A stretch of DNA of 64,000 bases from NCBI RefSeq assembly GCF_038751955.1, contig NZ_JBCEXH010000007.1, forward strand, positions 1 to 64,000. The letters are read 5' to 3'. The stretch is from Methanocalculus natronophilus. GTDB lineage: Archaea; Halobacteriota; Methanomicrobia; Methanomicrobiales; Methanocorpusculaceae. Position 1 is the stretch's first letter, and each line of letters opens with the position of its first letter. The notes under the pieces are model-generated. The model was not told the DNA's origin. It did not search any database and was given only the letters and a program-made list of their open reading frames with translations. Shown piece after piece: positions 15,429-20,072 of the stretch. A program made the position numbers and the translations under genes.

Positions 15429-15461
15429 TCTCTTATTTGTCCAGAACCAATACATAGAAGG

Positions 15462-17301: not shown

Positions 17302-18296
17302 TGAACGTTAATCTGATGCATGGTGCCGGTGGAGAGGTGATGGGCGAACTCCTCCGCACCCTCACTGCTTTTTCCCATACCAATGCTGGCGGAATCGGGC
17401 TAGAGAGCCTGGATGACGGGGCGGCTATCCCGTTTGATGATCGGTATATTGTGTTTACGACTGATTCTCATGTTGTACGGCCGCTCTTTTTTCCTGGAGG
17501 GGATATCGGGAGGATATCTGTTTGCGGAACAGTCAATGATCTCTCGGTGATGGGTGCACGCACCATTGCCCTTTCATCTGCCATGGTGATTGAAGAGGGT
17601 TTCCCAATTGCGGATCTCGAGAGGATCGTCTGTTCAATGGATGAGGCACTTGGCGAGGCGAAGACAAGCATCGTGACTGGAGATACCAAGGTTGTTGAAC
17701 GGGGTTCACTTGACGGGATCATCATCAATACTTCAGGCATCGGGATCTGTGACCGGCCCATCCGCGATTCCGGACTGCAGGAAGGGGATGCAATCATCGT
17801 CTCGGGAACACTTGGTGATCATGGGATCTCACTCCTCTCATTCCGGGAGGGCTTCGATCTCGGGGAGACACTGAGATCTGATTGTGCACCAATCTGGCCA
17901 ATTGTCGATCTCGCACTGAATGCAGGCGATGTCCATGCGATGAAAGATCCGACACGTGGCGGATTTGCCGCTGCAATCAATGAGATGGCAAAAAAAAGTG
18001 GGCTTGGTATCATTCTTGAAGAAGAGCAGGTGCCGGTTGCAACAAGTATCAGATCCGCAGGCGAGATCCTTGGGATCGATCCCCTGATGGTTGCAAACGA
18101 GGGGAAAGTCGTGATGGGAGTTTCAGCAGATGATGCAGATGCCATCCTCTCAGCCATCCGGACTCATCCTCTTGGTCGAAACGCAGCCATCATCGGGGAG
18201 GTTGTCTCAGGTTCCCGTGTGGTGATGCAGACCTCAATCGGCGGCGAGCGGTTTATCGAACCGCCGCTTGGAGATCCGGTGCCAAGGGTATGTTAG
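17301..18296 (+). CDS. hypE: hydrogenase expression/formation protein HypE
   Basis: This is a 331-residue HypE of the AIR-synthase/PurM fold. The N-terminal HGAGGEVM and DDGAAIP motifs bind ATP. The protein ends in PRVC, the PRxC tail whose Cys is carbamoylated and dehydrated to thiocyanate to make the hydrogenase CN ligands. The C-terminal cysteine is intact, so it should be active. The 3' end overlaps pyrC by 7 bp. Confidence 0.93.
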   Translation: MNVNLMHGAGGEVMGELLRTLTAFSHTNAGGIGLESLDDGAAIPFDDRYIVFTTDSHVVRPLFFPGGDIGRISVCGTVNDLSVMGARTIALSSAMVIEEGFPIADLERIVCSMDEALGEAKTSIVTGDTKVVERGSLDGIIINTSGIGICDRPIRDSGLQEGDAIIVSGTLGDHGISLLSFREGFDLGETLRSDCAPIWPIVDLALNAGDVHAMKDPTRGGFAAAINEMAKKSGLGIILEEEQVPVATSIRSAGEILGIDPLMVANEGKVVMGVSADDADAILSAIRTHPLGRNAAIIGEVVSGSRVVMQTSIGGERFIEPPLGDPVPRVC

Positions 18297-19552
18297 ATCT
18301 CGTCCTCAAAAACACCACGCTCCCGGATGGAAGGGTGGCAGATCTTTCGTTTTCTGAGGGGAAGCTCACGCATATCGGATCTGCTGGAGCAGCTTCAGAG
18401 GAGATTGACTGCCGCGGTCTCCTCTGTATCCCTGCAGCCTGTGACATGCATGTTCATATGCGCGGAGGCAGCCAGTCTGCCAAGGAGACCTGGCGAACAG
18501 GTACCATGGCAGCACTGGCAGGCGGTGTCACGATGGTTGTGGATCAACCAAATACGATCCCGCCGCTTCTGACAGAGACTCTCTATCACGACCGGATTCT
18601 TGAGGCAAAAGCCGGGTCACTCTGCTCGTTTGGTATAAATGGCGGGGTCTCGCCGGGTGCTGATCTGCATGCTCTCTTCAGGGCAGGCGCACTCGCATTT
18701 GGGGAGATTTTTGCCGCACCATCAAGTTATGGAGAGGCACTGACCGATCACCAGCTGCGCGATGCCCTCTTTGCGATCAATTCACTTGGCGGGCTCGCAA
18801 CCATTCACGCAGAAGAGGTTTTGGAAGGGATTCCAGAGACACTTGGCGCCCATCACCGGATCCGATCCCCGGATGGCGAGGTGCGATCACTGGACGCTAT
18901 TTCGGACTGCCTTCCCCCGGGTATGAAACCGCATATCTGCCATCTCAGCTCTCCTGACTCGCTTGCATCTGCTCCGGGCTCAAAAGAAGTTACCCCGCAC
19001 CATCTCTTCCTCTCAATTGAGCGTTTTTCACCTGATGATACACATGCCCGTGTCAACCCGCCGCTCCGTCCCGAATCAATCAGGCGCAGGCTCTATGCCG
19101 CATGGGATCAGATCGATGTCATCGCATCAGATCATGCCCCCCATACCATCTCTGATAAGGCAGTTCCTTTTGCCGATGCCCCATCCGGCCTCCCCGGTGT
19201 TGAGACGATGCTCCCGCTCCTGATGAATGAGGTGGCAGAAAAAAGGCTTTCGCTTGCATCTGTTATTGAGAAGACTGCGATCAGTCCCTGCAGGATACTT
19301 GGGATACAACCTGCCGGGTTTACTAGGGATACTCGTGCTGACTTTGCTCTCTATGCAATGAAACCAGAAACAATTGAGGGTGAGCTGCTCCACTCACGCT
19401 GCGGATGGACACCATATGAGGGGATGCCTGGTGTTTTTCCAACCCTTGTCATCCAGGAAGGAGCGGTATCGTATTCCGGCGGTGAATTTACCGGCACATC
19501 CGGCAGATGGGTTCCGGGAAGGGGTTATCATGGTCTACAACATATAGACTAA
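18290..19552 (+). CDS. pyrC: dihydroorotase
   Basis: This 420-residue amidohydrolase is of the class I dihydroorotase type. The metal site DMHVHMR (residues ~53-59) has Met where Leu is more usual. A later histidine (CHLSS) and SDHAPH near residue 285 complete the active site. It closes carbamoyl aspartate to dihydroorotate in pyrimidine synthesis. pyrE lies 5 kb away. The linkage to the hyp genes (7-bp overlap) is probably only transcriptional. Confidence 0.9.
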   Translation: MLDLVLKNTTLPDGRVADLSFSEGKLTHIGSAGAASEEIDCRGLLCIPAACDMHVHMRGGSQSAKETWRTGTMAALAGGVTMVVDQPNTIPPLLTETLYHDRILEAKAGSLCSFGINGGVSPGADLHALFRAGALAFGEIFAAPSSYGEALTDHQLRDALFAINSLGGLATIHAEEVLEGIPETLGAHHRIRSPDGEVRSLDAISDCLPPGMKPHICHLSSPDSLASAPGSKEVTPHHLFLSIERFSPDDTHARVNPPLRPESIRRRLYAAWDQIDVIASDHAPHTISDKAVPFADAPSGLPGVETMLPLLMNEVAEKRLSLASVIEKTAISPCRILGIQPAGFTRDTRADFALYAMKPETIEGELLHSRCGWTPYEGMPGVFPTLVIQEGAVSYSGGEFTGTSGRWVPGRGYHGLQHID

Positions 19553-19564
19553 CGTGCCAATACA

Positions 19565-19723
19565 TGCGCTTTCATAGGTCCCCGGGTGATCCATATGACG
19601 TATGTCATTGAGATGAGCCACGGGACAACCCGTCAGCGCGACAGGCACCGCCCGGTGAAGGGTTTGATATGGGAGGGACGGCAAAAGCCACCTGTGACCG
19701 GTATCAGTTATCACCGGGCGACA
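19565..19723 (+). ncRNA. two-hairpin H/ACA guide RNA candidate
   Basis: Two consecutive hairpins each end in an ACA box exactly 14 nt after the upper stem, the archaeal H/ACA spacing. Hairpin I: lower stem 19565-19570/19635-19640, upper stem GTCCC/GGGAC (19578-19582/19622-19626), ACA at 19641-19643. Hairpin II: lower stem of 10 bp, CGCCCGGTGA/TCACCGGGCG (19649-19658/19711-19720), upper stem TGATA/TATCA, ACA at 19721-19723. Both carry a kink-turn above the upper stem. In hairpin II, tandem GA pairs (19673-74 with 19696-97) stand beside a TGT bulge. A TATA-like CATATAG (19541-19547) lies ~25 bp upstream. Predicted pockets: TTCATAG with AACCCGTC, and AGGGTT with GTTA. Targets are not assigned. 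Confidence 0.65.
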
Positions 19724-19739
19724 TTCTGTTTCCCAATAC

Positions 19740-20072
19740 ATGCCTTCCTTTAAAGATGCAATCAGCCAAACCGCAGATGGGATTGAGATCGCAGTTGAGG
19801 TGATCCCCGGATCCCGGATGCAGAAATTCCCAACAGGCTATAATGCATGGCGGAACACGATAGGCATCTCTGTTACCGCACCCCCTGCCGGTGGGCGTGC
19901 CAATGCCATGGTCATATCCCTTGTAGCCGATGTGCTGGGCATCCCCCGATCAATGGTCAGAATTGTATCCGGCCATCAGGCACGGCGAAAAACAATTGGG
20001 ATCACCGGAACCGATCTGGATGATGTTTTACCACTCCTCGGGTTTGCACCTGATAATTCCGATATAACCTGA
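19740..20072 (+). CDS. DUF167 / YggU family protein
   Basis: This 110-residue protein matches the DUF167 (YggU) family. It contains VTAPPAGGRANAMVISL and VRIVSGHQARRKTI, the conserved core of this small alpha/beta fold. The function is unknown, though the family is widespread in archaea and bacteria. Its start lies 16 bp after the last ACA box of the H/ACA RNA candidate, so the RNA may be processed from a shared transcript or have its own promoter. Confidence 0.88.
   Translation: MPSFKDAISQTADGIEIAVEVIPGSRMQKFPTGYNAWRNTIGISVTAPPAGGRANAMVISLVADVLGIPRSMVRIVSGHQARRKTIGITGTDLDDVLPLLGFAPDNSDIT

Follow-up and report, generated by a model that had tools for sequence, protein, structure and literature searches.

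A putative two-hairpin H/ACA guide RNA of the Methanomicrobiales, related to HgcG/Pab40 hairpins II and III, with predicted target sites in 23S rRNA

Guide RNAs that are closest to the locus studied here have been described separately in three archaeal groups: HgcG/Pab40/Pf7 of the Thermococcales (Rfam RF00064), Afu4 of Archaeoglobus fulgidus (motifs Af4.2b and Af4.3) and HP1/HP2 of Haloferax volcanii (Hvo1/Hvo2), the two Haloferax hairpins being described as homologs of Pf7 stems II and III (PMC2584109). Their third or last hairpin is associated with helix 69 of 23S rRNA, with the third hairpin of HgcG/Pab40/Pf7 published as the guide for the equivalent of U1915 (L2016); in A. fulgidus the published sites include L1970, equivalent to U1915, and L2601, for which Af4.2b is the guide (PMC4652768), and those of Haloferax HP1/HP2 are L2621 and L1956/L1958 (PMC4652768, PMC2584109). 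The U1915 equivalent is the published site of three orthologs of what we call hairpin II below (PMC4652768, PMC2584109). Throughout, rRNA positions 1915, 2552, 2555, 2557 and 2586 are given in E. coli numbering.

Taken together, our analyses suggest, with a probability of roughly 0.88, that a locus in Methanocalculus natronophilus encodes a box H/ACA sRNA with two hairpins, the orthologs of hairpins II and III of HgcG/Pab40, with hairpin II predicted to guide U1915, and hairpin I U2555 and probably U2586. The locus lies in a window of 64,000 nucleotides (the whole stretch of DNA that was analysed; contig NZ_JBCEXH010000007.1, positions 1 to 64,000), and its assignment is supported by the shape of the RNA, its conservation, its homology to RF00064 via the Archaeoglobi, its complementarity to rRNA, co-changes of guide and rRNA, and the presence of Cbf5 and Nop10 genes. 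That the locus is transcribed, assembles into an RNP and directs modification in Methanocalculus is what we infer.

The element occupies 19564-19724 of the forward strand, on which all features given here lie, and these limits are those of its match to our covariance model R1 (159 bits; built from an alignment of 40 sequences), not transcript ends. Its neighbours, a pyrC-like gene (18290-19552) on one side and a DUF167 gene (19740-20072) on the other, leave a gap of 187 nt. Aligned upstream regions delimit a likely promoter stretch at 19541-19563, in which an A/T-rich block (about 19541-19547) lies ~21-25 bp 5' of the element and a GCC(A/G)ATA motif (19556-19562), kept across the order, lies just 5' of it; the two suggest that the element is transcribed. 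The initial annotation had seen a TATA-like box ~25 bp upstream, and the A/T-rich block is indeed there, its AT-richness being common to 39 aligned upstream sequences, and a promoter role is plausible. The string CCAATACAT occurs at window positions 15447-15455, ~10 nt before a tRNA-Ser gene, as well as at 19557-19565, just before the guide element, and at 19733-19741, spanning the DUF167 start codon, and may be a motif that lies close to the promoters of stable RNA genes. Of loci L001-L030, all but L029 have the gene order pyrC-element-DUF167, DUF167 not having been found at L029; in the sister genus g2, which is probably Methanocorpusculum, and at L039 the element is present with no DUF167 found adjoining, some of these loci being short.

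Both hairpins consist of a lower stem, an internal-loop pocket and an upper stem followed by ACA, conserved and covarying among the 40 aligned sequences. In hairpin I the 5' arm of the lower stem (19566-19573) pairs with 19632-19639 within the 3' arm (19632-19640; alignment and pair counts), and 7 of the 8 pairs covary. The 5' guide AUAGGU(C) (19574-19580) leads into the upper stem, whose 5' arm (19581-19587) pairs with 19617-19624 by pair counts, and the kink-turn is formed by a nearly invariant GA (19588-19589; G25 A26 in first-sequence numbering) and an invariant UGA (19614-19616; T51 G52 A53). The 3' guide ACAACCC (19625-19631) follows, and ACA box I stands at 19641-19643. Hairpin II has a lower stem of 9 bp lying directly against its ACA (19649-19657 with 19712-19720; pair counts), with GC, CG and AU exchanges, 96.7% of cells paired and 6 of 9 pairs covarying. 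Its 5' guide GGGUU (19660-19664) precedes the 5' arm of the upper stem (19665-19674; alignment and pair counts), which ends in the kink-turn GA at 19673-19674; the matching UGA is at 19695-19697, the 3' guide GUUA at 19707-19710, starting 14 nt before the ACA, and ACA box II at 19721-19723. The initial annotation, which had described two adjacent hairpins with lower stem, pocket, upper stem and GA kink-turn and had placed the ACA boxes at 19641 and 19721, is borne out on these points: every part is kept in the alignment, the two boxes are exactly there and invariant in all 40 sequences, and the UGA/GA kink-turn letters are nearly invariant. At L031, L033, L037, L040 and L041 (genus g2) hairpin II has UGC for UGA and AA for GA in its kink-turn, so that one sheared GA pair is gone.

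The single sequence folds at -71.3 kcal/mol, compared with -56.7 +/- 3.9 for shuffles (z -3.7; none of 200 as low). Compensatory changes in related Methanomicrobiales, which had been named as a check, are plentiful: 26 of 37 pairs are changed on both sides (RNAalifold and pair count), the cells changed on both sides number 186 versus 54 +/- 9 in shuffles, and 90% of cells are paired versus 33-43% once one side is slid. The distance from closing pair to ACA is 14 nt in hairpin II. In hairpin I two registers show similar total covariation, one closed by G19578-C19626, which puts the ACA at 14 nt, and one chosen by RNAalifold and closed by C19581-G19624 (columns 22-68), which puts it at 16 nt; a covarying pair at columns 25-65 (GC 30, AU 5, GU 4) lies in the latter, and G19578-C19626 as the sole closing register was dropped on this ground. 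The proposal that each ACA lies exactly 14 nt from the upper stem therefore holds for hairpin II, and for hairpin I only if G19578-C19626 closes. Both spacings fall within the 14-16 nt H/ACA range. Productive folds in P. abyssi use 14-15 nt (PMC4652768); what counts against our reading is that in the U2555 register the ACA of hairpin I is 16 nt away, at the top of the 14-16 nt range, a spacing that the Archaeoglobi hairpins share. The GUC/GAC letters of hairpin I may be paired in the free RNA, opening for the target.

At gathering cut-off Rfam finds no H/ACA RNA in the window, where its only matches are two tRNAs. Archaeal H/ACA models, another check proposed at the outset, gave no match in the pyrC-DUF167 gap even at E values up to 10, RF00064 included. 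Kinship emerges through the Archaeoglobi: the family f9 loci L151, L152 and L154, found with R1 and taken as Archaeoglobi by their similarity to L201, L210 and L236, match RF00064 on the same strand at 83-95 bits (cut-off 77), a score that the window itself does not reach. In alignment, the two hairpins of R1 fall on the second and third of HgcG. Because these Archaeoglobi loci match both R1 and RF00064, we regard the element as the Methanomicrobiales ortholog of HgcG/Pab40 hairpins II and III (Afu4; Haloferax HP1/HP2). Considering that it scores below the RF00064 cut-off and has two hairpins, not three, we file it as an ortholog that adds a member to a known kind, and not as a match to RF00064; of the three HgcG/Pab40 hairpins, II and III alone have conserved counterparts here, and upstream of these lies the end of pyrC. 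Conservation, covariation and the RF00064 homology strongly support the class first proposed, an archaeal two-hairpin H/ACA pseudouridylation guide.

The element is widespread. BLASTN with the gap recovered it in 41/61 genomes of the order (16/17 genera), and R1 matches 55/61, including 44 of the 45 good-quality ones with one copy each, as well as 90 of the 147 genomes sampled from the phylum. One order member of family f3 (G034, 98% complete) has no R1 match, though its 23S keeps U2586 and helix 69, and may hold a diverged copy or use another guide. In another genome (G033, locus L162) a long inserted spacer splits the two hairpins, an arrangement also described in haloarchaea.

For hairpin II the predicted target is U1915. 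The 22 23S sequences read from the order all have helix 69 as GGGGGUAAC-U1915-A-UGACCCUCUU; the UAAC that directly precedes U1915 is matched by the 3' guide GUUA, and the (U)GACCC after it by the 5' guide GGGUU(A). U1915 is the best of 716 U sites for this hairpin in the partial 23S of its own genome, in which 16S was not found, and the match is modest, with 62/2000 shuffled guides equalling it in one species. A simple scan ranks U1915 low in five genomes of the order because the 5' guide of hairpin II is displaced or altered. As in the HgcG/Pab40 orthologs (Afu4, HP1/HP2), the last hairpin would thus guide the U1915 equivalent.

For hairpin I, scanned on the assumption that columns 21-68 close the pocket, 18/18 genomes have as their best 23S/16S site UGAGGUUGU-U2555-C-GCCUAUU in the A-loop. 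In the window's genome the duplex comprises 12 consecutive pairs (-21.05 kcal/mol), with AUAGGU pairing GCCUAU after U2555 and ACAACC pairing GGUUGU before it, and it is equalled by 4/2000 shuffled guides. The next distinct site there is GCUGGGUU-U2586-A-GACC, in which GGUC pairs with GACC and AACCC with GGGUU; U2586 corresponds to H. marismortui Psi2621, the haloarchaeal site. The 3' guide ACAACCC would serve both sites, ACAACC for U2555 and AACCC for U2586, as seen in the rRNA scan and in the comparison of clades, and bipartite complementarity around a UN dinucleotide is present at U1915, U2555 and U2586 alike. We had at first assumed U2586 to be the only site of hairpin I; the full scan ranked U2555 better. 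Moreover, U1915 and U2555 lie 631 nt apart in four Archaeoglobi 23S genes, the same distance as L1970 and L2601, which identifies L2601 with U2555.

Scanning the rRNA for both pocket targets, as had been suggested, gave 23S sites for both hairpins and left the targets first written down partly right. The one for hairpin II, UAAC-UN-AACCCU, is essentially the correct site with the spacing off, the best site being GUAAC-UA-UGACCCU at U1915. The one for hairpin I, GACGGGUU-UN-CUAUGAA, is absent as a string among the best sites; its 3' guide fits GGGUU-UA-GACC at U2586, and the best site, GGUUGU-UC-GCCUAU at U2555, was missed because the closing pair of hairpin I had been placed two to three bases too low.

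Changes in guide and rRNA coincide in three lineages. In g2, of the same family, position 2586 is C in 8/8 genomes with a readable site, as compared with T in the 27 other genomes read, and these are the only C2586 genomes among 150 of the order. There the guide AACCC has become AACAC, AACAU, AACAA or AACAG, so that the U2586 pairing is gone, ACAAC is kept, and U.G has changed to C-G toward G2557. In probable Halobacteria (loci L161, L163-L169, so assigned from base composition and hairpins set apart) the A-loop is unchanged where 23S was read, and the guides carry UAGUC or close to it with (A/C)GAACCC, keeping the pairing to U2586 and losing that to the A-loop; this pattern agrees with the three Psi reported for H. 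marismortui 23S (PMC2584109). In family f12 the A-loop is GGGAGUUCACC, with U2552A and neighbouring changes, in 4/4 23S copies (L310, L341, L342, L343), and the guide is ACUACC in 2/2 element copies, so that a U-A pair compensates and two mismatches are left. To our knowledge U2552 is almost universally conserved. In the 23S of G168 (L318) the A-loop region, which lies upstream of U2586, has given way to unrelated sequence that may be an intron or a fault of assembly. Because each of the three co-changes is a single event on one branch, they support a two-site hairpin I without proving it. We give about even odds to a history in which, early in the Halobacteriota, this hairpin guided two sites (U2555 in the A-loop and U2586 of the peptidyl transferase centre) and lineages then resolved the duality in opposite ways, g2 through U2586C and loss of guide bases, probable Halobacteria through loss of the A-loop pairing, and f12 by compensation. 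If so, guide and rRNA would be seen to evolve together at the ribosome's catalytic heart.

The chief rival keeps the H/ACA guide and grants hairpin I a single functional site, U2555 only or U2586 only, with the other match a coincidence or a relic. We think this somewhat doubtful, though it has arguments on its side: the best duplex everywhere is U2555 alone, including in g2 where 2586 is C, and P. abyssi has been reported to have no Psi at the U2586 equivalent although Pab40 could pair there (PMC2584109). However, most of the order, family f8 and the Archaeoglobi example have both pairings complete, AACCC is retained outside g2 although U2555 does not need its last C, and clades that lose one site retain the other.

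Two further readings would dispense with a guide altogether. A cis-acting mRNA element, the 5' UTR of DUF167 or the 3' UTR of pyrC, for instance a regulatory kink-turn bound by L7Ae, would fit the co-directional flanking genes and the order pyrC-element-DUF167 in nearly all of L001-L030, and L7Ae autoregulation through kink-turns does occur in archaea. Yet it leaves the pocket letters, the ACA boxes and the complementarity to rRNA unexplained, the phylum's orthologs are described as free guide RNAs, and g2 retains the element with no DUF167 found adjoining, on which ground we rejected cis-regulation of DUF167; we consider this reading very improbable. Chance hairpins in an intergenic gap would account for the lack of an Rfam match to the element, but are scarcely credible given the fold (z of -3.7), 26 pairs altered on both sides and a single copy in 44/45 good genomes of the order.

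As an H/ACA guide, the element would act as in the established system. The kink-turn of each hairpin would bind L7Ae and the ACA Cbf5-Nop10-Gar1, and with the target docked the pocket would present a 23S uridine for conversion of U to Psi. Hairpin II would direct U1915 in helix 69 and hairpin I U2555 in the A-loop; by a small shift of register the pocket of hairpin I would probably also direct U2586, near the peptidyl transferase centre. Genes for Cbf5 (330 bits) and Nop10 (75 bits) are found in the same genome. A paper on the M. acetivorans ribosome reports methylations and no pseudouridines.

The kind of RNA is already known; this guide was previously uncatalogued and is absent from Rfam, and would serve 23S sites of central function in methanogens. 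Judging by its relatives, a single hairpin may act at two sites of the ribosome, of which different lineages dropped one, and these relatives offer natural experiments on the joint change of a guide RNA and its rRNA target.

Among the known systems, HgcG/Pab40/Pf7 has hairpins II and III adjacent in the same order as in the window, with GGUCCCC...AACCC in the second and GUGUUA in the third. It differs in having three hairpins and not two, the window copy lying below RF00064, and because the RF00064 consensus is GGGuAACCC as opposed to GGGACAACCC in the window, pairing with the A-loop is weaker in the Pyrococcus consensus. Afu4 resembles the element by published position, L2601 being U2555 and L1970 U1915, and its guide letters AUAGGU and GCAACC, as read in the Archaeoglobi loci and not in A. 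fulgidus itself, are nearly the same; those loci have an extra hairpin 5' of the pair, unlike the window. Similarly, Haloferax HP1/HP2 are two hairpins for helix 69 (L1956/L1958) and U2586 (L2621) (PMC2584109, PMC4652768), and R1 finds probable haloarchaeal loci, in which a spacer lies between the hairpins that are adjacent in the window and hairpin I is without the A-loop pairing, whereas the window has both pairings complete. One phylum-wide model thereby joins the separately described guides of Thermococcales, Archaeoglobus and Haloferax.
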